A stretch of DNA of 64,000 nt from Rhizoclosmatium globosum (Eukaryota; Chytridiomycota; Chytridiomycetes; Chytridiales; Chytriomycetaceae). The DNA lies in the NCBI GenBank assembly GCA_002104985.1, contig MCGO01000053.1, forward strand, positions 186,001 through 250,000. Reading direction: 5' to 3'. The notes under the pieces were generated by a model. It was not told where the DNA came from, did not search any database, and saw nothing but the letters and a program-made list of their open reading frames with translations. Below are positions 21,786-43,782 of this stretch, one piece after another (position 1 is the stretch's first letter; every line of letters begins with the position of its first letter). The position numbers and the translations under genes were made by a program.

Positions 21786-22289
21786 ATGCCGCCTCTCATA
21801 CGGAGGCAGACACAACAAGAACCAGTACCAGTTGAACCTCCCGTCAATTCTATCGCAACACCAGTCACAATCGGACTTGTGTGTGCTACACTTCTACTAT
21901 TCATCTTAGTTATCAGTTTATACCTCCGTTCCAACAGAACTGTGGAAACAAATAGTCAAGAAAGCCTTAAAGCAAAGACGTCGATATCATTCTCACTGTC
22001 ATCGCACCTATCTCCGTTATTTACAGATACAGTCGACGCAGTAGATAGTTGGCATCCAGGTGGATACGTGGGTGGGAAATGGACGTATTTCGATGCGGAG
22101 GAGGTATATCTGAGTGATGCAAGCGAGCTTGGCGAACAGAGACCCGAGGAGGCTCCAAGGATCACCAATCCGAATCCGAGATTATCCGAAGAAATGTCGC
22201 TAAGCACGAGCAACTGCTGTGATTCTTGTTCCGGTGTTCATGGAGTGGGATTGGGAATTCAGAGGTCTGACATATCTAGCTCGAACTAG
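21786..22289 (+). CDS. single-span membrane protein with Cys-rich tail
   Basis: Intronless, 167 residues. Short N-terminal segment MPPLIRRQTQQEPVPVEPP, one strong helix TIGLVCATLLLFILVISLYL followed by LRSNR, and a long acidic cytosolic tail with WHPGGYVGGKWTYFD. The end CCDSCSGVHGVGLGIQ is similar to CCQECRMTPEPVGLGITF of the next gene, so the two are paralogs. First member of the tandem series of small single-span proteins. N-out/C-in topology is inferred from the basic residues after the helix. Confidence 0.7.
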   Translation: MPPLIRRQTQQEPVPVEPPVNSIATPVTIGLVCATLLLFILVISLYLRSNRTVETNSQESLKAKTSISFSLSSHLSPLFTDTVDAVDSWHPGGYVGGKWTYFDAEEVYLSDASELGEQRPEEAPRITNPNPRLSEEMSLSTSNCCDSCSGVHGVGLGIQRSDISSSN

Positions 22290-22584
22290 TGTGGCGCTTC
22301 TCTGCATTTAGCGTATTCATATAGATATATAAATCATAAATTATACCCTGATACCATCAAATTCGTGTGAGCTGCGATAAAAGTTGATGAACACAGTCTT
22401 TCAAGAATAGACCCAAGTTCAGCTGCAGCCATTCTAATCACGTGTCCCGGTCGCGTGGCAGTTGCCTCCTTGCTCAGCAGACCAGGATTCTTTGAGTGAG
22501 TCACGCAGCCACAAATCAAAAACTCTTCCAGACACAGCACCAGAAACGAGCGGCGTATTCAACCACAAACCACCTTCCTTCGCT

Positions 22585-23175
22585 ATGCAAATCACGTCAT
22601 CAATCGAGGCTTCTGTCTCAAGCATCACCCTCTCAGAGAGTATCGCTGCCTCAGCCATCGCACTCACTTGTTCAGTGGCACTTGTCGCAGCATTCTACAT
22701 TGTATCTTCAATCAGAACCCGGATACATTCCAAAAACACCCAAATCCACGATATCGAAGCACTGCAGCCCGTCAAGGAACTCTCCACTGCCACTGAATCC
22801 GTAGTAGCTGTGGCTATCTACCACGGGGCACTCCAACGACCCGAACCAGCTGTTCGCGGCATAAAACCACAAGCAAGCTTCGACAGTGCATGTACGCTTG
22901 TCGTTGATCAGAACGCGGAGTGTATTGTTCCAAGTGATAAGAAGTTGGGAGGCGGTGGTGATGGAGAGCCTTTGGGCTTTCCTGCCAAAGCCACAATTAC
23001 GTATGCTTCCACTGAAGAGACTGTCGTCACGGATTGTGAGGAGGAAGTTGCTCCTGTTGAAGTATTGACGTTTCAGGAACGGGCGAGGAGGCGAGCGGCT
23101 GAGAAGCGGCGGAGTAAATGTTGTCAAGAATGTCGGATGACTCCAGAGCCTGTTGGATTGGGGATTACGTTCTAA
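22585..23175 (+). CDS. single-span membrane protein, paralog of 21786-22289
   Basis: The ATG at 22585 is preferred because the frame upstream has only a TTG. Ser/Thr-rich N-terminus, helix SAIALTCSVALVAAFYIV, basic SSIRTRIHSK, then about 120 cytosolic residues with a basic ERARRRAAEKRRSKCC run and the terminal CCQECRMTPEPVGLGITF shared with the upstream gene. The Cys cluster could be lipidated or bind metal. No known family. Confidence 0.65.
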   Translation: MQITSSIEASVSSITLSESIAASAIALTCSVALVAAFYIVSSIRTRIHSKNTQIHDIEALQPVKELSTATESVVAVAIYHGALQRPEPAVRGIKPQASFDSACTLVVDQNAECIVPSDKKLGGGGDGEPLGFPAKATITYASTEETVVTDCEEEVAPVEVLTFQERARRRAAEKRRSKCCQECRMTPEPVGLGITF

Positions 23176-23544
23176 AGGATATCCTTTGGAAAGTCTATGT
23201 CGCATTTGTATTATAAGTTGCATTATTTTATCCGCATTGTTACTATGCAGTTCTCTCTTTCTTCATTTTGATATCTATGATATATATCACGTTGTTTGTC
23301 TGTAAATACATCGATTATTGTCCATTGACGGTGGAGTTCATCAACAATGAAAGTGATGTCATAATCAGTATTACAGAAATTGGATTGCTCACTTATCCCA
23401 CATTAAATCAGACATTACATGGAAGACAATCGAATAATATTTTTGATGATATCATGAATGTTACCATGCTTTGCGGCCACTGATTCGAAATCGATTACCC
23501 TCTCTTCCTGAATACGAATCAAGTTGATAATAATTAAACTAAAA
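23176..23544. other. intergenic spacer
   Basis: AT-rich spacer of about 370 bases between two small membrane-protein genes. I see no gene or structured repeat. Confidence 0.4.
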
Positions 23545-23817
23545 ATGGCATCTCCAAGCACAAGCGCATTACCTCCTATTCAGGAAAATACTACTCATAT
23601 CAATAGCCCTTTGTCGATTTTGTTCGACTGCCTCCTTGGAATCGGAAGTGCGGGCATTTTAGCTTATCTCTACGTTCGCTTTCGCATAAGGAAGAATAAT
23701 TCACGCGAAAGAGACCAGTTACCCGAATATTCTGGCGACGAGCCGTTGCCGCAGTATATTGAACCTATTGAGCTGGAATCTCAAGAACCATCGCCCCAAC
23801 GACCCAATAGCCATTAA
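23545..23817 (+). CDS. small single-span protein with PEY...LPQY tail
   Basis: 90 residues, intronless, start MASPSTSALPPIQENTTH. One helix (SILFDCLLGIGSAGILAYLY), then a basic VRFRIRKNN and the tail QLPEYSGDEPLPQYIEPIEL. The signature P-E-Y-x2-D-E-x-L-P-x-Y recurs in the next genes. Two Pro-Tyr motifs next to the membrane are typical docking sites for WW domains such as those of Rsp5/Nedd4 ubiquitin ligases; that role is inference. Confidence 0.7.
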   Translation: MASPSTSALPPIQENTTHINSPLSILFDCLLGIGSAGILAYLYVRFRIRKNNSRERDQLPEYSGDEPLPQYIEPIELESQEPSPQRPNSH

Positions 23818-24087
23818 TTATGCTACCAACATACGTATATTATTATCATAGCCTCATATAATTGTGAATATAACCAGTTGATGTCCACTAAAGAAGCATA
23901 TATTAATAATTTGAATTTGTAAGCAAAAATTGCTTCTCCACCAACTTTATCAAAACACTATCTTGATTCGAAATCGCTCCATCTCATTCCGTTACACGTT
24001 GGAAAAAGTATGAATCACGGAAAGCTCATTTGAGCACCGTCATTGGAATTTGTTAACAAAAGTATCATTAAAACAAAACCGCCTCTA

Positions 24088-24330
24088 ATGTTCGACGCAC
24101 AAAGTATTCCAAACCCAGCCACATCCAGCACAGTTCCGAGCTCAAATGGATCAAGCAGTGGTATAAATGGCCCAACGTCGGTTATATTTTACGTTATTCT
24201 CGCTGTCACTCTTTTAGCCGCGTGCATCTACTTCTACCTTCAGAATCGGAAAGCAAAGCTGGATGCCATCGCTGCAGACAAAGCGCCAGAATACAAAGAC
24301 GAGGAATCTTTACCTCCGTACCTTGTGTAA
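24088..24330 (+). CDS. small single-span protein with PEYKDEESLPPY tail
   Basis: 80 residues. Start MFDAQSIPNPATS, Ser/Gly-rich ectodomain, helix TSVIFYVILAVTLLAACIYF, basic QNRKAKLD, tail APEYKDEESLPPYLV. Very close to the next gene in start (MFDA.S.P), layout and tail, so it is a recent tandem duplicate. The tail ends in a PPY-type motif. Confidence 0.72.
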   Translation: MFDAQSIPNPATSSTVPSSNGSSSGINGPTSVIFYVILAVTLLAACIYFYLQNRKAKLDAIAADKAPEYKDEESLPPYLV

Positions 24331-24495
24331 CTGCGCTCACCAGTTATAATGACTTTCTAGCCTCTTCTGCTTCTATTATGTCTCTACTGTTAATCCCTAT
24401 ATAAATGTTTACGATATTATACTTGTGACAAATAGTGCACATGATTACAAAATCAAAAAAGTGTCATCCAACTCATCCAACTTTGTCATCCGAAT

Positions 24496-24726
24496 ATGTT
24501 CGACGCATCATCCTTACCAAGTACATCTGAGGCTTCAGACTCTGCTCCTCCTGGACCAGTTGCAATTGTGTGTTTTGTGTTCATTGGCTCAGCCGTGTTA
24601 GGAGTAATAGCTGGGTTCTACATTCGGTATCGGAACCAAAAGCGAAACGAATGCTTGGAAGCTGGTGTACCTCCGCCAGAGTACAAGGATGATGAAGCGC
24701 TGCCTCCATATCTTCCTTCATCTTAA
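24496..24726 (+). CDS. small single-span protein with PPEYKDDEALPPY tail
   Basis: 76 residues. MFDASSLPSTSEAS, helix VAIVCFVFIGSAVLGVIAGF, basic YRNQKRNE, tail VPPPEYKDDEALPPYLPSS. Best example of the tail signature, with both a PPEY and an LPPY core. Tandem copy of 24088-24330. Confidence 0.72.
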   Translation: MFDASSLPSTSEASDSAPPGPVAIVCFVFIGSAVLGVIAGFYIRYRNQKRNECLEAGVPPPEYKDDEALPPYLPSS

Positions 24727-25089
24727 GAAGCTGTGAACGCTGTGAACCAGAACGAATTAGTAAATCACCACAGTACTTCAACCATAATTTAATACGAAAA
24801 TAAAGCTTGCATAATCTCAAATTCTCAATGACGCTGATTCGCACAATGATTTCGTTAAAACGGTCGAGACCTGCAAGCCATTCAGCCACAGAGGAATCGC
24901 GGACCCAAGCAGTGGAAAAACTCCGAATCATCAGCCTCCAATCAAATGACAAACACCCCTTGCACCAAGCAATGACTGCTGCTGAACAAAAGAATTAAGC
25001 AATCCAAACTTGCACAACTACTGCACCTCATTGTACATCTCGAACAACAATCAACACACGCAACGAACTATTCTTCAAGATTTGACGTT
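24727..25089. other. intergenic spacer
   Basis: About 360 bases of AT-rich sequence between small-protein genes; no gene supported. Confidence 0.4.
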
Positions 25090-25698
25090 ATGGCTGCCAT
25101 TGATTCTTCATCGACTTCCCCGAGTGGCTCTGACCAACAATCACTTCACCACGTACACCCCGAGCATCATTCTGAATCTCAATCCATTCCATCAAATTAC
25201 AACTACGTTTATTTACCGCCGCCAAAGCCGCTCTCAGCTTCTAATATTCCTGTTCCTCACGAAGTGATATTCCCAGCAGCACAGCAAGTCCAGCAACTCC
25301 AACAAACTGCCCAACCTTCTCCAAACTTCAACGATAACCAACAAGATACCCTTCCCCTCTCGACAGCCATTCCAATCATAATACTCATCGCTCTCGTCGT
25401 TCTTGCCAGTCTTGGAATTCTCGGGTACATTGCACACCAAACATACAAATCCCGTAAGCTTGAGCACGAAGAATCAACACGATGGAATGCGCGGACACCC
25501 GAAATAGACGACGAGCCGCTTCCAGTGTACGTACCGAAACATCAAGATGATGGGCTGGGCTTCCAAACGACAGTGATCCCGCGACGGGTCGACTCACTAG
25601 ATGTACCAAGGCGAGATGGTTTAGAAGAGGGAGAAGGATGGTCCTGGTGGGCGACACCCAGGCGGGACAGTCTGAACCAGCTTGCCTTCACTGTTTAA
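25090..25698 (+). CDS. larger single-span protein of the same tail family
   Basis: 202 residues. A Ser/Gln/Pro-rich ectodomain of about 95 residues (NYVYLPPPKPL, QQVQQLQQ), helix TAIPIIILIALVVLASLGIL, then YKSRKLEHEE and the tail core TPEIDDEPLPVYVP, a variant with the first Tyr lost, followed by an Arg/Asp-rich end containing WSWWATPRRDSL. Intronless. Probably an expanded member of the family. Confidence 0.7.
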   Translation: MAAIDSSSTSPSGSDQQSLHHVHPEHHSESQSIPSNYNYVYLPPPKPLSASNIPVPHEVIFPAAQQVQQLQQTAQPSPNFNDNQQDTLPLSTAIPIIILIALVVLASLGILGYIAHQTYKSRKLEHEESTRWNARTPEIDDEPLPVYVPKHQDDGLGFQTTVIPRRVDSLDVPRRDGLEEGEGWSWWATPRRDSLNQLAFTV

Positions 25699-25779
25699 GT
25701 TTATTTTGTACATGTCATCCTAATAGCCTCCTTCCTTCCTTCACACATTCATTTATAAATAAAGACAAAGATCTGATAT

Positions 25780-25983
25780 TCAAAGTGCTTTTGCGGCTTC
25801 TTTCTTTGCCCGTTCGAGCGATCTTCGAAGGGGATCAAAGGTTTGTTTGTTGAGGGCGTAGTGTCTGTTTGATGCCTCTTCGGCCCGAAGGAGCGAGTCT
25901 ACTTGCTGCATCGGCTCTTTTCCTTTGTCCGAGACGTCGTCGAATTGGGCCTTTTGAAGTTGGATTTTGTGGAGGGTGTTCAT
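25780..25983 (-). CDS. small charged alpha-helical protein
   Basis: 67 residues, MNTLHKIQLQKAQFDDVSDK...RRSLERAKKEAAKAL, predicted helical and soluble, no membrane segment. It starts at an ATG and lies antisense between two small-gene families. No family recognised. Confidence 0.5.
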   Translation of the reverse strand: MNTLHKIQLQKAQFDDVSDKGKEPMQQVDSLLRAEEASNRHYALNKQTFDPLRRSLERAKKEAAKAL

Positions 25984-26258
25984 TTGTTTGTTGGTTTTTT
26001 AATCGTTCTTTTTTAAAGAGAAGCACAGGAATGGTAGAAAAGAAGAATGTCCGTTTCCTTACTTCATGTTATACTCAGCCTTTTAAGGAATGGTCGGAAT
26101 ATCTATCACAAATATTCAATACCCATTCCATGTCCAAACTGAGCTAACCAAGTCAACCTAATAAAAGTTAACCACTTGATGTTTTGCTCCCGCCTTCGTC
26201 GCACAGCCACGTTTTAAGTGATTATTTAAATCCTTTCAAAACTCAAACGGAAACAACA

Positions 26259-26901
26259 ATGTCCTACCAGCAACCACAAGGCCCACCACCAGCCACCACC
26301 ACCTACGCTCAACCAGCAACCGCTCCAGCTCAGTACCCTCCTCAGGGAGACTTCCAGGTTGCGCAGGGCCAGCAACAGGTAAGATCCTGCATTTTTGAGA
26401 AATAAGTCCGCTCTATGATCTGTCGTTGAGCTGTATGCTGGCGTGATGGAATCACGATCTTTGAAATCGAGTGGAGAATCGTAGCGAATGAGGACGTTGC
26501 GCTTAAGGGGTGTGAGCCAAGACTGTAGATACTAAGATACGTTTGGAAAGTGTCCTGTGGCTGGTTCGAGGCGGAGTTGGCAAAAAACAAAAAACTAGAT
26601 GGGAGACACTGATTCCGATTTACTTGGATCCTGGAGAGGAGTAATAGATTGTGCGAAAGTGAAAGGATGTTGATAGTTGGTCTAACCCGATTTCGATCAC
26701 TTAGTACTACGCTGCTCCAAATGGACAGCCACAGATGGTTCAGCAGCCATCCACCGATAAGGGTGCGGGAGGCGACTCAGGTGCTGGATTCTGTGTTGGC
26801 TGTCTCGCTTGCTGTGCTATTTGCGAATGTTGCTACGTAAGTGATTAAGACTTATTTTTGGCTTTCATTCTAACTTAACGTTTACGTAGCTCTGTTGTTA
26901 A
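26259..26901 (+). CDS. CYSTM-like protein, three exons
   Basis: Exon 1 gives MSYQQPQGPPPATTTYAQP..., Pro/Gln/Tyr-rich. A long intron of about 320 nt (gtaagatc...cacttag) leads to exon 2, YYAAPNGQPQMVQQPSTDKG, then GFCVGCLACCAICECCY. A last micro-exon encodes only LCC and the stop. The Cys-rich block at the extreme C-terminus is the CYSTM module pattern (hydrophobic, Cys-packed, tail-anchored); members of that family in yeasts and plants are plasma-membrane stress-response proteins. Confidence 0.75.
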
Positions 26902-27174
26902 ATGGGGTTATTCTATTGCTTTCAATATCTTTTGCCGCTGCTCGATTTTAATAAAGTATGCATTCTTAAGTTCCACGTCTCCAGTCCATTGCATTTTTTT
27001 GCAGTTCATTCGTGTTATCTGAACGACAATAGAGCTTGCGAGAATAAAACGTTGGATGGAACTGGCCGTTGATGACTTATCATGGATAAGTCAACACTTC
27101 TTTGTTGGCCATAAATTGAAACATTTCCAAGCCAACCAAATTCATTCAAAACAACTAAAACCAAATAGGACACG

Positions 27175-27614
27175 ATGGGCCATCACAAGCGCGTTCCTTC
27201 TCTGATAATTTCTTATCCTGTCTACTCTCCAACTCAACACCAACGACTTCCCAGCCAGCACGACAACCAAAACGGATCTTTACATCACAGTGAGCAACAA
27301 TTGCCAGTGTATGGACTTGGATCGACATACTCCGCTGCTCAATATCCACCACGATACTACAATAACGGACAAGAGGTTGTGTCGTTGCATCATGGCGGAC
27401 AGAACTTGAACCATGGAGATCAATTGTATTATGGCCAGCAGCAGTCGCAGGATTATCCATATTTACAACAAATGCAACCACAGGTATCTCAGATAATTGT
27501 GCTCACTTGCCGTTTTAATACTTAAAAGGTTAATCTGTGCGAAAATAGATCGTTTACGTTCCAGCACCAAAGCAGCAGCACCATTCAAATGCGAGACGTC
27601 GCTGGTTTTGTTAG
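27175..27614 (+). CDS. CYSTM-cluster protein lacking the Cys module
   Basis: MGHHKRVPSLIISYPVYSPT, then a Gln/Tyr/Pro-rich head as in the neighbours (DQLYYGQQQSQDYPYLQQ). An intron (gtatctcag...aaaatag) leads to IVYVPAPKQQHHSNARRRWFC and a stop. The VVYV-type junction of the other members is kept but the Cys-rich tail is reduced to one Cys. Either truncated or a soluble variant. Confidence 0.55.
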
Positions 27615-27808: not shown

Positions 27809-28030
27809 ATGAGTACATACCCTGCTGACAAGAAGAACGATCAATTGTATGCGCCTCCTGCTGGACCTCCACCTCCACCAGCATACGGTAACACAACTAC
27901 GTATGCGGAACCGTCGTATCCCCCAACGCAACAGACGCAAGTACAAGATGACAGAGGTTTCTTCTCATCAAACCAAAGCGGATACGGGGTCGGGCAACCT
28001 CAACAGCCATACGGTGCACAGCCGCAATAT
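27809..28030 (+). pseudogene. 5' part of a CYSTM gene split by a mobile element
   Basis: MSTYPADKKNDQLYAPPAGP, PPPAYGNTTTYAEPSYPP and GYGVGQPQQPYGAQPQY; in-frame coding stops where CCTTTTTAGC of the element begins. The continuation, in the same frame and with the same Pro/Gln/Gly bias, is found 5.1 kb away at 33173. The residual frame adds only PF before a stop inside the element. Confidence 0.75.
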
Positions 28031-28229
28031 CCTTTTTAGCTTGCTAAAAGCTAGAGGTGGTTTTTCTCCGTCCGGCCGTGTAGGCACCCACTTCAAACCC
28101 CGCCAAGGTCACTTTGCAAAGTCACGTGTGTTACAGCCGGAAGTGACCTTCTACAGAAGTGTCCTTTATAGCCTTGAGCCAGGCCGCAACAGAAGTTTCT
28201 CGCAACACGAGAGTTACTTCACGAGTACA

Positions 28230-28620
28230 CATTCAACAATTCAACAAATCAACAAACGAGATGCGTGAACACACGTTCAAAAATTCTACACTCCAACAAA
28301 GCATCAACAATTCAGCAATTCAACAATTCAACAATTCAACAATTCAACAGTTCAACAAAGAATCAGCACTTCAACAACTCAACAATTCAACACTTCAACA
28401 AGGATTGACAAGGAAACATATTCAACGATTCAACAGTTCAACAAAGAATCAGCACTTCAACATTTCAACAATTCAACACTTCAACAAGGATTGACAAGGA
28501 AACATATTCAACGATTCAACAGTTCAACAAAGGATTTGCAATTCAACAATTCAACACTTCAACAAAGGATTTGCAATTCAACAATTCAACAGTTCAACAC
28601 TTCAACACTTCAACAGAATC
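28230..28620 (+). repeat. TTCAACA-type minisatellite
   Basis: Dozens of 8-9 bp units such as attcaacaa and cttcaacaa. They form a higher-order unit of about 87 bp (gaatcagcacttcaac ... gattcaacagttcaacaaa) seen at about 28360 and again at about 28446, then partly once more. Inside the 5.1-kb element. Confidence 0.85.
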
Positions 28621-28819
28621 CCCAAAAACACTGTTTTAACACGAATTTGTTGATAATAAATCCGAACAATTCTCACTATGTTGTTAGCACCCTAAGTTTG
28701 GAAGCTAGACACAGAGGAAGAAGAAAGATCTCCATCTCAACCTCATTATTCCATCACTCTAAAACTAAACTTCCTGAACATATCCTCCAACAAAAATATT
28801 TCGGGGACCTCACTATTAT

Positions 28820-28887
28820 TAGGGGGGAGGGGGGGGGACAAGCCCCCCCCTTCCTTCCCCCCTAAAAACCCCCCTCGAGCCCCCCCC
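28820..28887. repeat. G-tract/C-tract block
   Basis: Runs of six to nine G followed by several runs of six to eight C (aggggggaggggggggga then agcccccccc and more). It can form a G-rich/C-rich hairpin and a G-quadruplex. Within the mobile element. Confidence 0.7.
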
Positions 28888-29574
28888 TTTTGAACAATAG
28901 TTGTGATGTTGGGCCTTTTATTATGCGTACTATTAATGTATTATCAATGTATCGTAACTGCAACCAGTTCCCTTCCTCATTTTGGGTGACAATTTTTGGA
29001 AGTGTCCTGAAACTCTTTTCCAAGCGTAGTTTTTCAAAAACAAACACTGCCAAAGTTATATAAAGCATTGCGAAGTCATTAACCAACCTCAAAATCTAGA
29101 GAAAGGGTGAGAATAGGACGAATTTTATTGATTAAAGGCGGAGGACAGTTGTGCGAGAAGGACACTTCCGGATGTGACACACGTGATGACTCATTTCCAA
29201 TAACACATTCCTATTGGAATCATCATTGACGAACAAAAAACATAACAAACGTCATAAAAACAAAATAGCAGCCAAATACAGAGAAACTTTACAAGTACAG
29301 TACAACAATTTCTTCCATGTCCAAAGTGTGCCAGATTGCTGGAGAAATGTATGAATACAGATTTTTCTGATGAGATGAACGTTAGCATCCACAAACTGTC
29401 AAACTACAAACATTTGTTCTTGGAGGGATGTGTTGCCCACGCCTCCAGCACCTGTTTGGAGTTTAGGCCATTGACCATGTGTTGACTTTGTTGCCTTCTA
29501 GGTAAAGCAGGAATGTTGATATTGTCTCCAATAAAGTTTTGACTGAAGATGATCAGAATTGCTCTTATGGATAA

Positions 29575-30089
29575 TAGGGATGGTCAAAGTAAGGGATTTT
29601 GGACAAGATTGAAAAGCACGAAAAGCGAAGCTCCCTCGCTTTTCGATATCGCAATTTGGCGTCACTTTTCAGTTTTGCGATTCGATTTCGCAATTCACCA
29701 CCAAGACCGCTAAGAAGCAGAACACTAAGAAGGAGCGATTTGAAACCTCAACTCTGACCCTCCTTGTCAACAGGTTTTGAACCACCACTTTTCAAAAGGT
29801 TGAAACATCACTTTTCAAACACCCCAATCTTCGCAGCAAACATTGGGGCGTTTGAAAAGCGGCAGTTTGAAACCGTCGGAAAGGGATGGTCAGAGTTGCA
29901 GTTTCGAACCGGATTAGGTCGTGAAAAGCAAAATCGAATCGCAAAACTCAAAAGCGGCTCCCAAAAGCAAAATTGAAAAGCGAGGGAGAGGTTCTCTTTT
30001 GGGTTCAAAAAGGGGATTTTGGCCATTTCAAAACTTCGCTTTTCACACTTTTGAAAATTGTCCAAAACACCCAACTTTGACCACCCCTA
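29575..30089. mobile_element. MITE copy 1, TA-flanked
   Basis: Flanked by TA on both sides. Left end TAGGGATGGTCAAAGT and right end ACTTTGACCACCCCTA are inverted repeats with one mismatch, and similarity continues inward for about 40 bp (ATTTTGGACAA, GAAAAGCGAAG). About 510 bp with no ORF, rich in GAAAAGC/GCTTTTC inversions (foldback-like). TA duplication and size fit a Tc1/mariner-type MITE. Confidence 0.75.
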
Positions 30090-32234: not shown

Positions 32235-32506
32235 TTTTTGACACAGCTATATGTGATTTGCGAAAGTTGCCCTTTCCTTCACAACCAATACTAAACACCT
32301 CAACAAGTACAATAAAATCTCCTGAAAGACACATTAATTAAAGTAATCCTTTATACTACCACTCACATTACACACTCCTCCATAAAAAGCTAACCCTAAG
32401 ACTTGTGTTGTCATTGATTTTAAGCTTCTCAGTAATTGTGTCAATGTGGCTAATTGTGTTTTTAACACTTTTGGAGGCAGTGTCAAGTTTTGCACAAGTA
32501 GTAGCA

Positions 32507-33436: not shown

Positions 33437-33548
33437 TTTCATTAGTTCGAGTAAGGAGAATAGAGTGCAATTCTGTTTCAATTTGGAAGGGGAAAGGGAG
33501 GAAGACAGAACCACAAAGTCAAACTCAAGAAAAACATCAACCAAAACC

Positions 33549-34835: not shown

Positions 34836-34974
34836 TCGTTTTGTGTCGCTGAAATCAATCCAAGTGTTGTTGTTTTTGAATTACCATAGACTTCAAGCGA
34901 CGAAATCATACAATACCACTCCTTTATTTCAGCTGGAATCTAATAAAACACGGATACCATCAAAGAAAAATCTC

Positions 34975-35325
34975 TTACAATGCCAAGGCGGCGACAGCAA
35001 CAGCAACCAACGCAACAGGAGCAGCGGAAGCGATTGACGCAGACTTGATCTGCTGACACGCCTTCTGCAACGAAGCAATAGAATCAAGAGTGGATTTATC
35101 ATCTGGAGTGGTACAACTTGCAACGGCCTTTGCGTAGATGGCTTGGTTCGCGGTAGAGCACAAACAGTTGTTCTGGTCTTTTGTAAATGGCGATGGGTTG
35201 GTGAGCGAAATGCCGCAGGCGGAGTATACGGAGCCGGTCATGACGGGAGCGGCATCAGTGGAGCACTGGGTAGATTGAGCATAGACTGTAGCGGCAAAGG
35301 CAATGAGGATCTGGATAGCTTGCAT
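34975..35325 (-). CDS. secreted GPI-anchored Cys-rich protein
   Basis: 116 residues. Signal peptide MQAIQILIAFAATVYAQ, mature domain with QCSTDAAP, SACGISLTN, NNCLCSTANQAIYAKAVASC and QKACQQ (seven Cys by eye), then a Ser/Ala hydrophobic end VALVAVAVAALAL typical of a GPI-attachment signal. Reminiscent of small fungal surface proteins, but the Cys spacing does not clearly fit CFEM. It is antisense inside the CYSTM island. Confidence 0.7.
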   Translation of the reverse strand: MQAIQILIAFAATVYAQSTQCSTDAAPVMTGSVYSACGISLTNPSPFTKDQNNCLCSTANQAIYAKAVASCTTPDDKSTLDSIASLQKACQQIKSASIASAAPVALVAVAVAALAL

Positions 35326-35388
35326 CGTTTTCTCTGAGATCTTTGAGGTTTAAATTGAGTTGTGAAAACAGGAAGGGGATGTGTGACG

Positions 35389-35398
35389 AGCTTTATAT
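35389..35398 (-). promoter_or_regulatory. TATA box
   Basis: On the minus strand tatataaag lies about 65 bases upstream of the ATG at 35325. Good consensus. Confidence 0.45.
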
Positions 35399-35539
35399 AT
35401 TGTGGAAAACTTTGGGGCTGGACTTTTTCTGATCGGCGGTGAGGCTGTGTGTGAGGCGGGAGAGCGATCTACTTGTTTTTACTGTTTCGTTTATTCTGAA
35501 ATTCCCATCTATTTATTTAGATCTCGGTCTTTCGAAGAT

Positions 35540-35815
35540 TCACCAGCAACAACAGCCAAAACAGATTGAGCTACCGAAACACATGGAACCCCAACCAGTA
35601 CAGTCCCCACTGAAGCATCCACATCCTTTTCGTCTAGTTTCTTTCGACGCTGTTAACTCTTGCTCGATATTGCGCTGATGGTCATCTTGGTTGGTGTCAT
35701 CATACAAGTGCTTGCGGTGATAAGCAATTTCTTCTGCAGTTGGTGGTTGCAATCGCTTTTCCATCTTGCTTATATTCATCTGCGGCTGAATGGCGGTAAC
35801 AGCGGCTGCCTCCAT
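35540..35815 (-). CDS. small protein with Cys-rich tail
   Basis: 91 residues. Polar head with LQPPTAEEIAYHRKHLYDDT, then RRKGCGCFSGDCTGWGSMCF, GSSICFGCCCW. The terminal Cys/aromatic block resembles CYSTM modules, but the head lacks the Pro/Gln repeats and the gene is intronless and in opposite orientation. Confidence 0.6.
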   Translation of the reverse strand: MEAAAVTAIQPQMNISKMEKRLQPPTAEEIAYHRKHLYDDTNQDDHQRNIEQELTASKETRRKGCGCFSGDCTGWGSMCFGSSICFGCCCW

Positions 35816-36018
35816 TTGGTGGATCGTTGTTGATTTGATTGATTGTTTGCCGCTTGTGGAAATTCAATTAACGTCAATTAACGTGTGATGTAAGAAAAGT
35901 CTTATCATGACATTAACAGATATATTCTTTTACTCAGTTTGATGTTATTTCTGTAGTAATTGAGCTGTATGATTGGTTGAGCTTGATCCAAACCCAAACC
36001 AAAACAACTCACCAAACA

Positions 36019-36550
36019 ATGTCCGCCGCTCCTCCAAACTACTCGACCCTTCCTCAACCAGGAACTCCATCTGGTCCTGCATACGCTCCACCAGCCGGAC
36101 CACCACCACCAGGTCCAGCCCAGCCAGCAACCGCAACCTACGCAACCTACGAAGCCCCTGCCCCAGCCGCCTACGCTGCCCCTGCAAACCCTCCTCCATC
36201 CGGACCAGCCTACGCTCCACCTTCCCAACCACCAGCTCCACAGTCTGGCTACGCTTACGCCGCCCCAGCCCAGAACCAGTACCCAGAGTACAACAAGCAG
36301 CCTGTTTACAACCAGCAGCCAGGCGGTCAGCCACAACCTCAAGTTGTCTATGTTCAGCAGCCTGTGAGAACTACTTGATCCGGCCTCAGTAAATATCAGT
36401 CTAATTGTTGTTTCCTAATCAGGCTCCACAAAACAACAACACCAACGCATTACTCGCTGGTGCTGCTGCCGGTACTTGTTTGGTAAGATCATAGAAGTTC
36501 AGTATATATGTGTTCTAATCATTTTGTGGTAGTTCTGCTGTTGTTGTTAA
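36019..36550 (+). CDS. CYSTM-like protein
   Basis: MSAAPPNYSTLPQPGTPSGP with repeated GPAYAPP units, QYPEYNKQPVYNQQPGG, PQVVYVQQP. Intron 1 (gtgaga...aatcag), then APQNNNTNALLAGAAAGTCL. Intron 2 (gtaaga...ggtag) and a micro-exon FCCCC and stop. The Cys block is short and depends on correct splicing of the micro-exon. Confidence 0.78.
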
Positions 36551-36756
36551 GGCTAGAAACCTTTGCTACTGTCTGTGATTGTGATTATCTGACTTCAAGT
36601 CGAATAAATATATAGAATTTACACCGTCATTCATTCATTCACTTCGATTTTTAACCATTTAACATTCATGCCGTCAACCAGCCTCAATGGCCAGTTATAA
36701 ATTGGAATTCGTTGAAACACAGCCTCATCAAACAAAACATCCTTCAAACCGAACAC

Positions 36757-37057
36757 ATGTACGCCCAACCAGCCAACCCACCTCCACAAGAGCAGCAACC
36801 AGTCTACCAACAGCAGCCACAGGCCCAACCCCAGGTTGTTTACGTTCAACAGCAGCCTGTAAGTGTTCATCTAAGAATTGCACTTTGGATCGTGACTTAA
36901 ATATCTTTACAGCAACAACAAGATAAGGGTGCAGATGGTGCCGCCACTGGATGCTGCGTTGGTTGTTTGGCCTGTTGCGCCCTCCAGGAGTGTTTGGTAA
37001 GTGTTGTAATATAACGGGTAATAATGTTGACGTCGCTTTCAGTTCTGCTGCTGTTAA
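36757..37057 (+). CDS. CYSTM-like protein, MYAQPANPPPQ subfamily copy 1
   Basis: MYAQPANPPPQEQQPVYQQQ and PQVVYVQQQP, intron, then QQQDKGADGAATGCCVGCLACCALQECL, intron and micro-exon FCCC and stop. Only about 64 residues. Near-identical in layout to 37245 and 40038, so a recent tandem triplication. Confidence 0.82.
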
Positions 37058-37244
37058 GCAACCAAGACGGTCAAGGCCAAGTTACATAGATTTTGAAGGA
37101 CCTCCTTTTCAATAAAAGCCTGCTCGCAACGTCGCGCAAATGAAACACTTGATACGTTTTCATTTTCACAAAAAGGGTTCGATTCGATCCAATTTGGTCT
37201 ATTGAGGCAGTGCAAAAAAATACCACTTCCCTGAAACCATCAAG

Positions 37245-37574
37245 ATGTACGCCCAGCCTGCCAACCCACCTCCACAGCAACAGCCAGTCTACCAACAGCA
37301 ACCACAGTACCAGCAGCAGCCACAAGTTGTCTACGTCCAACAGCAGCCAGTAAGTTTTCTCTCTCACAGCTTTCACCTTTGTTTCATGGTTCCAAATTGA
37401 CACACCATTCGCGCTGCAGCAACAGCAACAGTCTTCTGGTGCCGCTGCTGGCTGTTGCGTTGGTTTATTGGCTTGTTGCGCCTTCCAGGAGTGTTTGGTG
37501 AGTGTTGTTTCTGTTGAAGGGTATGGGATGTGTCCCTTATTTAACCGGTGTCTATTCAGTTCTGCTGCTGCTGA
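37245..37574 (+). CDS. CYSTM-like protein, MYAQPANPPPQ subfamily copy 2
   Basis: MYAQPANPPPQQQPVYQQQP, QYQQQPQVVYVQQQP, intron, QQQQSSGAAAGCCVGLLACC, AFQECL, intron and micro-exon FCCC plus stop. Intron positions and phases as in copy 1. The inverted-repeat unit starting at 37590 lies just after its stop codon. Confidence 0.82.
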
Positions 37575-37589
37575 ACGAAACCTTTCTGA

Positions 37590-39669
37590 TTACACCGCGG
37601 GTGATTTCAAATGGTTGAAAATAATTGAGAGACATTTCAAAATAAATGACTGGGTTAACTCAGAATGACGTCAACAAAGTGATTTTCACATATTGGTCTG
37701 AATTATTTTGAAATGAGCATGAAAACAATTTGAAATGTTTCCTCGTGCAACATGCAACCAATAATTTTGATCTGAAGATTGATAAATAATTGGTTGCAGA
37801 ATACTAACAAGGATTATCCTTCACAGCAGATTGAAACATTTCAGGCCAAAGTATTTCAGTGAATGATAAATGAATAATTCAGAATAAATAGAGGCGAAAA
37901 TGTTCTTTATTGTTTATACATTAACATCTGAAACTACTCATTATCCTGTTCTTGAATCGCTTCAGGAGAACTTGGATGGACAGTTGGCAATTGGGATGAA
38001 TCAGGCCCGGGAAGTGTGACTCGGGTACGGCAGGAGATGGCTGACTCTCCACTTGCTCCACTTCCTCTCCCATCAGCTGGAAACGCACACTAGCCAATAC
38101 TGCTTCCCGAATCGTATTTGGAGACAAGAAATTCGCGAAGTGTGCAGAACAGTAAGCCCAGTAGTTTTCTTGAAGTCTTGAACAATAAACCTAAACAGCG
38201 GTCAAATTTATGATGAAAGGCGCACCACTTACCAGCAAGTAACCGACGGTTTTACGATCTAGAGCATCATCGGGGAAAGCAAAATCGAGGGCCTTGTCTT
38301 TGTTTCTTGGAAAGTCGCCGTAGAGGTCTTGAATCGCCTGATCGACATTGAAAACGCGAGTGTCCCACTTTTGCAACTAAACAGAGCCGTTAGTGTTTGT
38401 ATTGTATATGGTAAGAGTATCACCTCTTTTTTTGAGTGATTAACGGCAGAGAGATTGTCTCCAGCAAACTTGGTTTCTGAATGCGCATCGGGTGTAGCCA
38501 TGGCGTAGTTATGCTGCTGGTTCTAGAATCAAGTGTTAGATTCAATAGAAAACCAGAAGTCACATGCATCTCTCCAATCCATACACACCTTCACCATATC
38601 CAGGACTGAGTGGACGCCTATGCATGGTTAAATCTGACAACACTTTTTCTGCCGAGAGATAGGAAAACCGAATCACTCTTCTACTAAGACTGTCAGTGAA
38701 ACAGATTTCGGTTTGGAAACTCACAAGCTACCTAAAAGTGAGCAATCAACAGCTTCAACGTTGCCGCGGTCAGAAGTCCCACGCTTTAGAGTGCCAGCAG
38801 TTGAAGAAGTGGCAACGAGAGGAGGGACGGCTCAAACGACTGCGGGAGTAGATGAAGTTGAAGGAGCAGAGGGGAGTTTTAAGAGGGTGTGTGTTGGTGT
38901 TGCTACGAAGTTGAGGTCCCATGGCTGGTAAGTGTGCTTAAACGGCCTACTCCGCTGCTGCTGCTACTGTTGTATTGCTGCAGCGTGTTTTTTTTTTGAG
39001 ACCTAACTTCAAGTTCTTCCGCGATTTCTTCCGCGAATTCTTCCGAAACCCGTGTGCCAAAACATTAAAAGTTGGATCAACTCCCAGAAAGCTCATGGAA
39101 ATACAACGTGTGCATCTCTCTATAATCAAAACGTCGTACTTCTGTCCGAAAATCTGTTTCAAAAAGCTGTTTCCAAAGACAACAGCAAGGAATCTGTGTC
39201 TGAAGTTGTGTCTGGGGTAAGTGGAAATATCCAAGAAGATGAAACACTGAAAATAGAGACGTTAATGTTATTGAATTGTCAAATATTGAAGAAAATGAAA
39301 TGCAATAGCTCAATAACATCGAAAGGCAAAGGGGACGGCTGATTATCATTTTAGTTTTAAGACAATGCCAATTATTCTTCTTCTCCAATATTTTCAAAGA
39401 TGCTCAGTTGATAATTGGAATCATTTCTGGGTCTTCTTCATCTCATGTTAATTGAGAAAGTTATTTTGGGTTTATTCAAGGTGTTATTTTTCAAAATCAT
39501 TTGTACGATTATTTTGAAACGATTTCCCTTTCAAACTGTTTCAATGAATAAATCACCATTGTCCAAAATAATTTTGGCCTCGGAAATGCTCTAAAATGTT
39601 TTTTACAACATTTCAAATTAAAACTCACACCAATTTATTTGAAGTTCATTTTAATCACCCGCGGTGTAA
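37590..39669. mobile_element. 2.1-kb unit bounded by inverted repeats
   Basis: Left end TTACACCGCGGGTGATT (37590-37606) and its exact reverse complement at the right end (39653-39669). A weaker shared AAATG follows, and subterminal AATTTGAAATGTT occurs in inverted orientation on both sides. It sits between two near-identical CYSTM genes. It contains the gene at 37921-38501 and ORF fragments near 38700-39340. No target duplication or transposase recognised; it may be a non-autonomous transposon or a segment bracketed by repeats. Confidence 0.5.
37921..38501 (-). CDS. three-exon protein of unknown function
   Basis: MATPDAHSETKFAGDNLSAV, intron (gtgata...tgtttag), LQKWDTRVFNVDQAIQDLYG, DFPRNKDKALDFAFPDDALD, RKTVGYLL, intron (gtaagt...tgtttag), VYCSRLQENYWAYCSAHFAN, then a polar C-terminus ending RIMSSFRC. 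About 165 residues, soluble, mixed alpha. No known family. It lies inside the inverted-repeat unit 37590-39669, so it may be element cargo. Confidence 0.55.
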
Positions 39670-40037
39670 GTCAAGTATAGAGTGGAAAGTGTGATTGAAG
39701 GGGCATGAGTTTGGCTGCATCGATTGGAATAGTCAATAAAGTGCACTCACCACACTTATCACAAATTCATGTCGATATTATTACTATGCTTCTCTCGTTA
39801 CTGGAGGAAATTCAACGTGTGACCTGCCCCAACAAATCCTTATATTGAATTGCTTTCCACTCATAATTGATGATTACGAAAACAAAGTCCGATTCAAAGA
39901 GTTTGGATCTGGAGGCTGTTTAAACCTTGAAACACGAAAGTTCGAAGGTGTGTCTCCGAAATCACGTGCAAGTGCATTTAAGCTCCCATTTGAAGGATCC
40001 ATTTCTGCATCAGCCAAAACCTCAACGAAAACCACAG
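38502..40037. other. AT-rich region with unassigned ORF fragments
   Basis: Plus-strand frames near 38713-38931 (EGSFKRVCVGVATKLRSHGW) and 39052-39342 (SLYNQNVVLLSENLFQKAVS) may be exons of one gene, since gtaagt follows the first at 38930 and an acceptor-like ctgcag lies near 38984. I cannot establish a start or a family. From 39360 to 40037 I see only AT-rich sequence. Confidence 0.3.
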
Positions 40038-40373
40038 ATGTACGCCCAGCCTGCCAACCCACCACCACAGCAGCAGCAAGTCTACCAGCAGCAGCCACAG
40101 TACCAGCAACAGCCACAGGTCGTCTACGTCCAGCAACAGCCTGTAAGGAGCCACCCTCTTCGTAAATTGGATGGATAGCTAAACCAGTTCTGTCCTTCTT
40201 CAGCAACAACAGGCTAAGTCCGGTGCCGGTTCTGGTTTCTGTCTCGGATGCCTCGCTTGCTGCGCCCTTGAGGAGTGCTTGGTGAGTTATCGGGAGTTTG
40301 GTGTTTCATTTGTCTTGGCAACATTCGTGGGACGAAGTTCATTAACCTTGCCGTTTAGTGCTGCTGCTGTTAA
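40038..40373 (+). CDS. CYSTM-like protein, MYAQPANPPPQ subfamily copy 3
   Basis: MYAQPANPPPQQQQVYQQQP, PQVVYVQQQP, intron (gtaagg...cttcag), QQQAKSGAGSGFCLGCLACC, ALEECL, intron (gtgagt...gtttag) and micro-exon CCC plus stop. Same exon phases as copies 1 and 2, from which it is separated by the 2.1-kb inverted-repeat unit. Confidence 0.82.
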
Positions 40374-40549
40374 GTCGCTCATTCGAATGCCATTGGTTGT
40401 GACGAGAGCCTTCTCACGTCTTTTCCTTCCTCTTAGATGGATGAAATAAATGTTGTTAACTGATATATAACTATTGAGAAAATAAGAGGAACAAAATCGA
40501 CTAGTTGACAAGTCTTTTTGATTGGTATCGCTAAATTTCACTTAAAATT

Positions 40550-40872
40550 ATGCCAGTAGATACATCCGAAGATCCAACAATATTGGTACCTGCATCGGGA
40601 GTATCACATTCCCTCACAGCCGAGCCCTCAAATGATTTGCCGCAGTATACAACAGCTGGGCCTCCAATCTATTCAGTCACACCCTCTGTTCAACCGCAAA
40701 TGGCAACTTCTCAACGTGGCGCAGAGGGGATATACCCTTGAAAATGTATGCAAACTTATGGCTGTAACAGGGCGATGATATATGCCAAGTGTGTGTTCCT
40801 GAATGTGCATACTGTGCGCCAGATGCTTGTTGTTGGTGCTTCACTGCCTTACTTTGCTGTATCTGTCATTAA
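40550..40872 (+). CDS. PPIY-motif protein with separate Cys-rich block, exon link uncertain
   Basis: First frame MPVDTSEDPTILVPASGVSH ... LPQYTTAGPPIYSVTPS stops at 40741. A downstream frame after an acceptor (gtaacag) reads DICQVCVPECAYCAPDACCW, CFTALLCCICH and stop at 40872. Layout matches the neighbours (Pro/Tyr head, Cys tail), but the phases do not join cleanly. Either a frame break or an unseen donor. Confidence 0.45.
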
Positions 40873-40933
40873 GCAATAAGAACCTCTTATTCATTCTTAT
40901 TCATTCGTTAATCTCACTGCAATCAGTTTTTAA

Positions 40934-41305
40934 ATGTCATGTAAAACAAAACTGGAGCTAATAAAAATCATGCAAGAATCAAATCGAGTAGCCGCTTCAG
41001 ATGCCGCTGGCCAATCAATCTCACCAACATCGTCTCTTCCAAATAACGATTCGACCAGCCAACCGCCTCAGTACCACGTTACAGAGTATCCTCCGACATA
41101 CAAGGATGCATCACAACAACAACCTCAGATGACTGTGCAACAGGTTGTGACAACAGAAGTAAGATGAAAACGGAAACCCCATCTGAAACTCGCTAACTAT
41201 GTTCAGAATTCCAGAACAATTGACCCTTTCGCAAGTTGTGTTTGTTGTGAGATATGTCTGCGTTGTTGCGAATGTTGCTTCTTGCTGGCATTCTGTCCTT
41301 GCTGA
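40934..41305 (+). CDS. PPTY-motif protein with Cys-rich tail
   Basis: MSCKTKLELIKIMQESNRVA, then QPPQYHVTEYPPTYKDASQQ and QPQMTVQQVVTTE; intron (gtaaga...gttcag); NSRTIDPFASCVCCEICLRC, CECCFLLAFCPC and stop. The tail has eleven Cys in about 30 residues with hydrophobic residues between them. Three Pro-Tyr motifs in the head. Confidence 0.72.
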
Positions 41306-41389
41306 ACATAACTCCATGATCTACAATTGTATAATTATATAGAACTGTTAATTGTAGACTTTATCTGTATCAAAACAATAAAACTCTTC

Positions 41390-41872
41390 ATGAATTCCAC
41401 TTCACTTTCGGCACAAGCTGTCAGTATCAGTACTCCGACATCTGAGGAGAGCCACACAACCATATACTCAAACACAAGTGAAGCATATCCTACGAATCAA
41501 GTCTTGCAGGCGAAGGCAACAACCGACTCCTTCCAAGTGCAATCCGGCGAACCCGCAACCTATGACTTCGACCAGCAAGCCACGCCCACGACAATCCATG
41601 AATACCCTGTAACAGTTGAGCTTGGCGGAGGCGATGCCAAGGAACCAAAGCGAAGGTGGAACTCAAAGCTTCTCGAACCTCGACGGCATGTTGTGTTTCC
41701 ACAGATCCGAGTCGGCTTCTGGCCCATCGATATCGTGATTAAACTGATCGAATGGATCTTTTATATCGGCTTTCGGATGGTGGCGTGCCTGTTTTCGTTC
41801 ATCTTTGACTTGTTGGGTTGTATCTTTGGATGTTTGGGCGTTCCTATCAAGAAGTGGGTCGTTCTAGATTAG
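41390..41872 (+). CDS. KIR...LIE membrane-block protein, copy 1
   Basis: Disordered Ser/Thr head, then IHEYPVTVELGGGDAKEPKR. A conserved block PQIRVGFWPIDIVIKLIEWI, then FYIGFRMVACLFSFIFDLLG, CIFGCLGVPIKKWVVLD. Shares the head-end (T/E-VVVEL-like) and the [PQ]-KIR-T/V-GFWP-x-D-x-I-x-LIE block with 42232 and 43354. The hydrophobic run of about 45 residues could form a membrane hairpin. Intronless. Confidence 0.7.
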   Translation: MNSTSLSAQAVSISTPTSEESHTTIYSNTSEAYPTNQVLQAKATTDSFQVQSGEPATYDFDQQATPTTIHEYPVTVELGGGDAKEPKRRWNSKLLEPRRHVVFPQIRVGFWPIDIVIKLIEWIFYIGFRMVACLFSFIFDLLGCIFGCLGVPIKKWVVLD

Positions 41873-42231
41873 AGCTACTTTATTGCAATTATGGATCAGG
41901 ATTATGGGACTACCTGCTGTCCTATGGGCGATTCGGTACTTTGAGTTCAAACTGTGGTCCTACCATCATTCCACAATCTAACATGAACCTAAACTCTACA
42001 CTAATGGACGATTATTTATAACTGCGAGAGATGCCAGAGCTCGTGACGATTGTATTTAGTTACTTACATACGCCATACCCATTATTACTATTTTTAATAC
42101 AATAATAATATGTCGGACTAAGAATTCATTCTTTTTCGTTTGAATTGAACTTGGTTCTACGCTTTCAAGTCTATAGCTGTTGTTGGTCCCACGATTCCAC
42201 ACTCTGATTGAAACCTCTTCTGAAACTCAAA

Positions 42232-42705
42232 ATGGCTGACGTCAAAGACCCAAACACCGGCGAAACAAAGAAACCAATCGAATCCGAGACAATAGCAGAT
42301 GTCCCGCCTCCATATACTGTCATGGAAGTGGGATCGTCCACTGCAACATCATCACCCAATCAATATGTTGGTTCCTAGCCATTCTCTTCTCAAACCGGCT
42401 AACAGTAGCACCAACAACAGCCTCAACCGCAATATCAACCTCCGCCAGCCCAAACTGAAGCTGTGGTGATCAACCTCGTCAGCCCAGAAAGCAGCAATAC
42501 CCAACGCCCCTCAGAGAGACTAAGACTGCCAAAGATTCGAACAGGCTTCTGGCCACTTGACCTTATTATTCAACTTATCGAGGCTGTCATCAAGATCGTG
42601 GCTGGAATCCTGAGTTGTGTGTTCTTGATTGTGATCAATATCTTGAAATGCCTTGCAGGTTGTTTAACTTGCGGGAAGGCGAATGTGACATTTGGAAAGT
42701 TTTAG
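42232..42705 (+). CDS. KIR...LIE membrane-block protein, copy 2
   Basis: MADVKDPNTGETKKPIESET, DVPPPYTVMEVG (a PPPY motif). Intron (gttggt...acagtag), then HQQQPQPQYQPPPAQTEAVV, INLVSPESSN, PKIRTGFWPLDLIIQLIEAV, IKIVAGILSCVFLIVINILK, CLAGCLTCGKANVTFGKF. The last residues (ANVTFGKF) equal the repeat of the next gene (KVTVGKF), linking the two gene types. Confidence 0.72.
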
Positions 42706-42915
42706 TTTGAATATAGTTTCTATGGTTTACCTTGCGGGTTTAGAAGTGGTTTTCGTGGGTTTTGAGGAATTAAGAAAGGGCCTCCTTTGCGGAATTACAT
42801 CAGATTCTCATGGGCCAAGTTCGGTGGCGTACAAAATAAGTCTCCCTATCACAAAGATTGCAATATAAATGTGGCTGTGCTGTCGTTTTAACCTCCTCTA
42901 AAACTATCAAACAAA

Positions 42916-43257
42916 ATGACTACAGCACCATACACAGAAGACGCCAAGAGACCATTGGGAGCTGAGCCAATTGTTGATGTATGTTCCTTTCGTTTATCAA
43001 CTTTCCGTAGTTATTGAGTTTGATAACAGCCAGCCACAATTGAAGTCGTCAAGCCAGTTAGCTCGACTACTGATGCCACTGAAGCTGCTTCAAGCAAAAC
43101 ATTCTCCATTGGGAAAGCTAAAGTAACTGTTGGAGACTTCTCTGAATCTGCAGGAGACAAGCCAACTGGCGTACCAGCGGATGGAAATGACAGCGAAGCG
43201 CCGTCAGGAAAAACCTTTTCCATTGGGAAAGTCAAAGTGACGGTTGGAAAGTTCTAG
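42916..43257 (+). CDS. small soluble protein with KTFSIGKxKVTVGxF repeats
   Basis: MTTAPYTEDAKRPLGAEPIV, intron (gtatgt...ataacag), PATIEVVKPVSS, then KTFSIGKAKVTVGDF and, after a polar linker, KTFSIGKVKVTVGKF and stop. Two near-perfect 15-residue repeats and no membrane block. It looks like a derivative of the 42232 gene in which the terminal VTxGKF element was duplicated and the membrane part lost. Confidence 0.68.
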
Positions 43258-43353
43258 GATGGATTATGATTTTTGAGATGAAGTTGGTAAAGTCAATAAA
43301 ACCAAGTTAAGTTATAAGAAACTCATTGAAAATCGAAGAGACTAGCTCCGACG

Positions 43354-43782
43354 ATGGATGCATCCATGATATCCGAACCACTGTCGATAGACAGCTTCAT
43401 ACCTCCATTGAGTGTTAGAGAGAGCCAGCAGATCCAATTTGTACCCACTCATGAACTGAATACTGCACTCAATCAATCTATCCAGCCATTACCTCCAACA
43501 TATCCAAATCCGGATTCATCTCTCTTCCAGACACCACCAATAGTAAAGACTGAGACCGTGGTTGTGGAGTTGGGTGATGCCCGAGTGCCAACGCCACAAC
43601 CTCCGATAATAGTTCCGAAAATAAGGACCGCTTGCTGTCTTATTGATCTTTTGATCTTTCTGATTGAATTCGTGATTACTGTGTCGTTCGTGTTGGTGGG
43701 ATGCATCGTCGGATGGGGTCCGACAATGTGTATAAAGTATTGTGGAAGAATCCGATGTTCGCTACGAATACCAGTTTCTTAA
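43354..43782 (+). CDS. KIR...LIE membrane-block protein, copy 3
   Basis: MDASMISEPLSIDSFIPPLS, QPLPPTYPNPDSS (a PPTY motif), VKTETVVVELGDARVPTPQP, PKIRTACCLIDLLIFLIEFV, ITVSFVLVGCIVGWGPTMCI, CGRIRCSLRIPVS. Intronless, 142 residues. Conserved with 41390 and 42232 in the VVVELG segment and the KIR...LIE block, but GFWP is changed to ACCL. Confidence 0.7.
   Translation: MDASMISEPLSIDSFIPPLSVRESQQIQFVPTHELNTALNQSIQPLPPTYPNPDSSLFQTPPIVKTETVVVELGDARVPTPQPPIIVPKIRTACCLIDLLIFLIEFVITVSFVLVGCIVGWGPTMCIKYCGRIRCSLRIPVS

Follow-up and report, generated by a model that had tools for sequence, protein, structure and literature searches.

Layout of the island and purifying selection

The window analysed here, a stretch of 64,000 nucleotides that is part of contig C370 of Rhizoclosmatium globosum, holds between positions 21,786 and 43,782 an island of 23 small gene models, which we built by hand from open reading frames (ORFs) and splice sites with the help of the second haplotype (allelic contig C65); genome searches covered 57 Mb in 420 contigs. 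The genes follow one another in the order g1–g6, A, B, C, D, E, F, G, H, I, J, K, L, M, N, O, P and Q, and 21 of the 23 lie on the plus strand, F and G being on the minus strand. Two kinds of small membrane protein appear to make up the cluster, single-span proteins (g1–g6) and tail-anchored proteins of the CYSTM type (A–E and H–K). A preliminary description of this DNA had proposed an island of small genes laid out almost entirely on one strand, and both points hold, with the reading frame kept in all 15 allelic genes compared. It had also described the genes as packed in tandem; the clustering stands, the single packed array does not, since inserts ended by terminal inverted repeats interrupt C and separate J from K.

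Contig C65 is the allelic region and matches positions 21,691–27,312, 33,200–37,579, 39,871–42,983 and 42,979–49,909 in blocks of 95–97% identity. Pooled over 15 allelic pairs, the per-site ratio of amino-acid-changing to silent differences (pN/pS) is 0.18 (48.0 changes at 4029 nonsynonymous sites and 82.0 at 1233 synonymous sites; Fisher p = 1.8e-22), an amino-acid change rate about one fifth of the silent rate, and the island ORFs are therefore a real set of genes under purifying selection. By group the ratio is 0.14 for g1–g6, 0.14 for A, D, E, I, J and K, and 0.29 for N, P and Q. Single-gene ratios, each resting on few changes, are 0.09 for g2, 0.14 for g3, 0.09 for g4, 0.07 for g6, 0.12 for D, 0.34 for N and 0.21 for Q; the alleles of E differ by one amino-acid change and no silent one. 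Eight genes stood outside the count: H, which is frameshifted in C65, B, C and M, whose coordinates could not be lifted over, and F, G, L and O. The genes and the inserts of the island are as follows.

21786–22289, plus strand: g1, 167 amino acids (aa), single span, no PY motif; tail with VGLGI
22585–23175, plus strand: g2, 196 aa, single span, no PY motif; tail end VGLGITF
23545–23817, plus strand: g3, 90 aa, single span; LPEY and LPQY on the predicted cytosolic side
24088–24330, plus strand: g4, 80 aa, single span; tail APEYKDEESLPPYLV
24496–24726, plus strand: g5, 76 aa, single span; tail PPPEYKDDEALPPYLP
25090–25698, plus strand: g6, 202 aa, single span; tail EIDDEPLPVYVP
26259–26901, plus strand: A, CYSTM-type, 87 aa, three exons, no VVYV; a relative in Rhizoclosmatium sp. 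JEL0117
27175–27614, plus strand: B, CYSTM-type N-terminal part without Cys tail; IVYV; decayed look
27809–28039, plus strand: C, 5' part of a CYSTM-type gene truncated by an insert
28033–33170, no strand assigned: insert inside C with 13-bp terminal inverted repeats; sequence foreign to C65 continues to about 33,198
33199–33436, plus strand: C, 3' part, with VVYVQAP and a GCLGCCALQELCLCCLFD tail
33549–34077, plus strand: D, CYSTM-type, 156 aa, two exons
34501–34879, plus strand: E, CYSTM-type, 109 aa, two exons; VVVV
34975–35325, minus strand: F, 116 aa; by eye secreted and Cys-bearing with a hydrophobic C-terminus, outside the two families
35540–35815, minus strand: G, 91 aa, Cys-rich tail, no PY motif
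36019–36550, plus strand: H, CYSTM-like, 140 aa in three exons, short tail; reading frame shifted in C65
36757–37057, plus strand: I, CYSTM-type, 66 aa, three exons; Pfam CYSTM match in the genome search
37245–37574, plus strand: J, CYSTM-type, 65 aa, three exons
37590–39669, no strand assigned: 2.1-kb insert between J and K with 17-bp terminal inverted repeats read from the sequence; absent from C65
40038–40373, plus strand: K, CYSTM-type, 65 aa, three exons
40550–40872, plus strand: L, first exon with LPQY and PPIY, possible Cys tail downstream, uncertain splicing
40970–41305, plus strand: M, 95 aa, two exons; PPQY, PPTY and a 10-Cys tail; splice donor missing in C65
41390–41872, plus strand: N, family 3, 160 aa, no PY motif
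42232–42706, plus strand: O, family 3, PPPY in the first exon; intron inferred
42916–43257, plus strand: P, 96 aa in two exons, without PY motif; in C65 the intron is the site of a retroelement-like insert
43354–43782, plus strand: Q, family 3, 142 aa, PPTY

PY motifs and a candidate WW-HECT partner

The preliminary description had placed PPxY-like motifs on the cytosolic side of membrane proteins, and for g3–g6 the charge pattern agrees. Within 15 residues of the span, g1–g6 have no lysine or arginine before it and two to six after it, an asymmetry by which the N-terminus is predicted to lie outside and the C-terminal tail in the cytosol. Identity to g5 is 40% for g4 and 31% for g3, and the best-conserved part of these three proteins is the tail PEY-(x)-DE-LPxY: seven of 11 invariant columns (g3–g5 with their alleles or relative) fall in the 12-residue PEY...LPxY block (hypergeometric 9e-5). 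This double arrangement is found in g3–g5, and g6 carries LPVY only. The one protein-database match of g5, 97% identical and from Rhizoclosmatium sp. JEL0117, retains both PPEY and LPPY.

Searches of the genome with g2 and g6 gave significant expectation (E) values for the two alleles only. There is a hint that the tail module of g3–g5 recurs elsewhere in the genome, in a larger membrane protein that ends in LPEY-x-DEPPRY and is weakly matched by g6 on C113 and C73; the two copies are allelic and single-span with a large N-terminal domain (L046:1120–1764, minus strand; L047:1117–1767, plus strand). A further match, of g5 on C124 (E 0.026), was dropped, being a larger membrane protein in which no tail motif was seen by eye. 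LPEY-x-DEPPRY is itself a double motif, as in g3–g5.

We compared the number of [LP]PxY motifs in 22 proteins (F left out) with the number expected after masking the best hydrophobic span, where present, and shuffling the remainder 2,000 times; only the first reading frame was used for L and O and only the 5' part for C. The motif is present in 12 of the 22 proteins. The 13 non-CYSTM proteins hold 12 motifs (six LPxY and six PPxY) against 0.78 expected, a count reached in none of the 2000 shuffles. The excess is found in g3–g6 (six seen, 0.43 expected), in L, M and G taken together (four seen, 0.14 expected) and in N, O, Q and P (two seen, 0.14 expected, P = 0.0045). In g3–g6 the signal is mostly LPxY, and strict PPxY alone shows no excess there (one seen, 0.29 expected, P = 0.25). 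As controls, the 30 flanking ORFs that reach 120 aa (5,537 aa in all, crude ORFs rather than gene models) had no motif where 1.45 were expected, the 66 that reach 60 aa had two where 1.97 were expected, and 25 minus-strand ORFs inside the island had none where 0.23 were expected. All 12 non-CYSTM motifs are present in C65, the PPIY of L being PPNY there.

The preliminary description had suggested a search for ligases with WW and HECT domains. Run on the genome, with both haplotypes counted, the search returned 53 WW and 38 HECT matches at E ≤ 0.001, and three WW matches directly precede a HECT domain on C212 and again on the allelic C414, in the Nedd4/Rsp5 order. A recheck of the C212 domains confirmed two WW domains and the HECT domain. 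On C204 a WW match and a HECT piece lie within about 600 bases, and this may be another WW-HECT gene. In the reading we prefer, the products of g3–g6, L, M, O and Q would most likely dock a WW-HECT ligase of the Nedd4/Rsp5 type at the membrane.

The motifs could instead bind WW proteins other than a HECT ligase and so serve scaffolds or signalling adaptors rather than ubiquitin adaptors. Most of the 53 WW matches are indeed not beside a HECT match; however, the best-described small single-span proteins with such tails bind ligases of the Nedd4/Rsp5 type (PMC5578492), and we regard a different class of partner as unlikely. Less likely again is the proposal that all families, the CYSTM-type included, recruit one WW partner through PY motifs in a combinatorial manner. 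The common strand of 21 models and the spread of motifs over 12 proteins speak for it, but the nine CYSTM-type genes have five motifs where 2.84 are expected (P = 0.146), five of the nine (A, D, I, J and K) lack the motif, as do g1, g2, N, P and G elsewhere in the island, and none of eight CYSTM-type database relatives from elsewhere carries it. Motif convergence of the CYSTM-type genes was rejected on the shuffle test and the relatives, and because this group shows no excess the earlier claim that different families converge on the same motif fails. What stands of that claim is narrower: eight of the 23 genes (g3–g6, L, M, O and Q) are above chance, and the CYSTM-type group is at chance.

CYSTM-type genes, possible derivatives and broken copies

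CYSTM proteins were reportedly first described by Venancio and Aravind, and to our knowledge no mechanism for them is settled. The nine Pro/Gln/Tyr-rich, Cys-tailed genes of the island (A–E and H–K) are, judged by sequence, of this known stress-linked type, and their products are predicted to be tail-anchored. A Pro/Gln/Tyr-rich part, predicted to be cytosolic, precedes a Cys-packed C-terminal membrane segment; in A, D, E, I, J and K the last 30 residues contain seven to nine Cys and an acidic residue stands at −7 to −9, and the tail of C is alike. H has five Cys and no acidic residue in its tail. The element before the Cys segment reads VVYV in C, D, H, I, J and K, IVYV in B and VVVV in E, and A has none; it is strand-like by pattern only. 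All 15 modelled introns are in phase 0, and in all seven CYSTM-type genes whose 3' end is intact, an intron lies three to five residues before the stop.

In a genome search with Pfam CYSTM (PF12734), gene I scored 28.6 bits and its allele 28.2 against a cut-off of 25.2. Other genes, on C224, C340 and C349, match at about 41 bits; they have QPQVVYVQQQP and the Cys pattern in common with the island proteins, and the VVYV element is found in those on C224 and C340. With a profile of seven island proteins, eight of 7,993 scored candidates came out at E ≤ 0.001, from Rhizoclosmatium, Chytriomyces sp. MP71 (two), Synchytrium endobioticum and Obelidium mucronatum among others; two of the eight, those of Synchytrium and Obelidium, carry PF12734. 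The largest group of the island belongs to a known kind, which the preliminary description had left unnamed.

We infer that L and M, and perhaps N, O and Q, may be diverged CYSTM-like derivatives. In M a phase-0 intron separates the PY part from the 10-Cys tail, as in the CYSTM-type genes, and the protein weakly matches the second exon of A (E 0.058). Other weak matches of M, on C190 and C112 (E 0.006–0.05), were dropped, their frames overlapping or opposing other ORFs and no Cys tail being visible by eye. Within family 3, N and O are related (E 8.9e-10) and N and Q weakly so by search (E 0.2). Stop codons stand between the two parts of O in both haplotypes, so that an intron is assumed whose position we have not located. 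The genome search found island copies only for this family, and the protein database gave 665 candidates, none at E ≤ 0.1. A low-confidence AlphaFold model from a four-row alignment (mean predicted local distance difference test score 53.7) has a disordered N-terminal part and helices at 91–119 and 123–136. F has no significant Pfam match.

The two haplotypes differ by insertions and breaks, and several copies therefore appear dispensable. In C65 an 8.4-kb insert, absent from the haplotype of the window, lies at the intron of P, and a 12.7-kb stretch upstream of C contains a Pif1-type helicase ORF. In the same haplotype H is shifted out of frame by a 14-bp insertion, a deletion has removed the splice donor of M, and C is continuous with no ATG at the usual place. 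B looks decayed in both haplotypes. With C split in the window and inserts in both haplotypes, these breaks would suit a duplicate cluster in decay, ridden with transposons and of little present function, but the pooled allelic ratio over 15 pairs makes this very unlikely.

Several side observations concern the inserts and the surroundings. Positions 28230–28620, within the insert that splits C, form a minisatellite-like run of CAACAATTCAACA-type units. The C65 insert at P is flanked by a 5-bp duplication, GTATG, and its 2,399-aa ORF (C65 about 31.2–38.4 kb; L025:1222–8421) resembles, by eye, a retroelement of the copia type and contains a long array of 27-residue-class repeats. The insertion in H (L024:5818–6391) repeats neighbouring bases (AACCA), like the footprint of a transposon excision. 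Beside the island, 47500–55800 holds several minus-strand ORFs that by eye look like repeated multi-span transporter genes (with stretches of the type GSILGPLLGG), a second tandem family, and 19918–21705 has two matching copies side by side at the beginning of C65 (1–1811 and 1812–3323), from a tandem duplication or an assembly artefact. A shared promoter word for the island genes was rejected: the best 7-mer occurs in only six of 23 upstream regions, with p = 3.1e-6 uncorrected for the thousands of words tested.

A proposed two-family cluster and its known counterparts

Given a tail design like that of Rcr1 and Comm on the one side and the stress links of CYSTM proteins on the other, we see in the island two tandem families lying side by side. 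We lean, if only slightly, towards a lineage-specific tandem cluster in which CYSTM-type proteins and their possible derivatives stand next to small predicted ligase adaptors of Rcr1/Comm-like design, a proposal that draws on the structure of the genes, the purifying selection on them, the surplus of motifs, the charge pattern around the span and the WW-HECT gene. A ligase docked by the PY-tailed proteins would steer the ubiquitination and sorting of neighbouring membrane proteins; the model for such docking is Rcr1/Rcr2, thought to act so in yeast. The CYSTM-type members would most likely serve membrane stress tolerance without a PY-dependent partner, and L, M, O and Q could form a bridge between the stress-linked and the ligase-docking families. 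In a bolder version, which we hold to be rather improbable, the locus would serve stress or a life stage of this chytrid, and its CYSTM array would have given rise to L, M, O and Q as PY-bearing, Cys-tailed derivatives; these, with the neighbouring g3–g6, would be a clustered and expanding set of membrane-bound recruiters for one WW-HECT ligase, by which CYSTM proteins would be linked to membrane-protein turnover. That the tyrosines are instead sorting signals for AP adaptors (Yxx-hydrophobic), with the prolines incidental, is hardly credible: the motifs do lie in predicted cytosolic tails near the membrane, but a bulky hydrophobic residue at Y+3 was read by eye in just one of the 12 non-CYSTM motifs (O, PPPYTVM), and the invariant residues of g3–g5 include prolines and an acidic residue.

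Several points weigh against a two-family cluster with ligase adaptors. The allelic ratio of g5 is 1.01 on four changes (three amino-acid, one silent) and that of g1 is 0.52 on eight, and the models of O and L are uncertain. The shuffle P values are optimistic because the locus had been chosen partly for its motifs, a bias that is smaller for the flank control and for the contrast with the CYSTM-type genes, and retention of the motifs in C65 weighs little, the alleles being close. The g6 matches on C113 and C73 are non-significant by sequence (E 0.17 and 0.93). An hmmscan of the spliced A, D, E, H, I, J and K lists no CYSTM, and in the genome search with the CYSTM profile the 14 control genomes were silent too, so that membership rests on the shared pattern and the database relatives, and the CYSTM match of gene I runs through its intron with one stop inside. 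No C2 domain was found in the one exon of the WW-HECT gene that was tested. RCR (PF12273) was found neither in g3–g6 by hmmscan nor in a genome search whose control was silent too, and the role of Rcr1 in chitin is described as independent of Rsp5 (PMC5578492).

Fungal membrane adaptors of Nedd4/Rsp5 ligases are described mainly from yeast in the literature compared here. In the open-access literature searched we found nothing on PPXY in Chytridiomycota or on tandem CYSTM gene clusters in fungi, and CYSTM with chytrid returned only titles concerning microbial communities. With CYSTM-type genes beside putative PY-tailed adaptors, and perhaps evolving into them, the locus offers a compact test of a CYSTM-type role in membrane-protein turnover. 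It also shows selection on very short fungal membrane genes that annotation readily misses.

The nearest known counterparts of A–E and H–K are the members of the CYSTM family (PF12734; yeast YDL012C, YBR016W, YDR210W and MNC1, plant PCC1 and mammalian CYSTM1). Like these, the island proteins are small, with a polar Pro/Gln/Tyr-rich N-terminal part, a strand-like element and a Cys-packed C-terminal segment with an acidic residue (PMC10217909); unlike them, they are encoded nine in tandem at one locus, with a very short Cys exon and with direct Pfam support for gene I only. The yeast members are linked to stress tolerance, two of them lying in the plasma membrane toward emergent buds (PMC10217909), and in plant PCC1 the Cys-rich tail holds the protein, which binds COP9 subunit 5, at the plasma membrane (PMC3903633).

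The single-span proteins have several analogues. The Shisa-like (STMC6) proteins CYYR1, WBP1 and VOPP1 also combine a single span with cytosolic PY motifs (PMC5578492), but g3–g6 lack their six-Cys N-terminal domain and have no Cys before the span. The Rsp5 adaptors Bsd2, Tre1/2, Ear1 and Ssh4 are likewise membrane proteins presenting PPxY or LPxY (PMC2810449); these are larger, and Ear1 and Ssh4 have a SPRY domain, which Pfam scans found in none of the island proteins. Nearest in design are yeast Rcr1/Rcr2 and animal Commissureless/PRRG4, which have a short single span and a cytosolic pair of PY-type motifs (PMC5578492). In Rcr1 the motif that binds Rsp5 is VPEY, assisted by PPSY; Comm relies on an LPSY with acidic residues behind it (PMC5578492). 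The tails of g3–g6 share this design with no detectable sequence relationship, and the RCR-like layout of a single span with PEY and [LP]PxY on the predicted cytosolic side is found in g3–g5. Set beside these systems, the island is a new arrangement of familiar parts and not a new kind of system.

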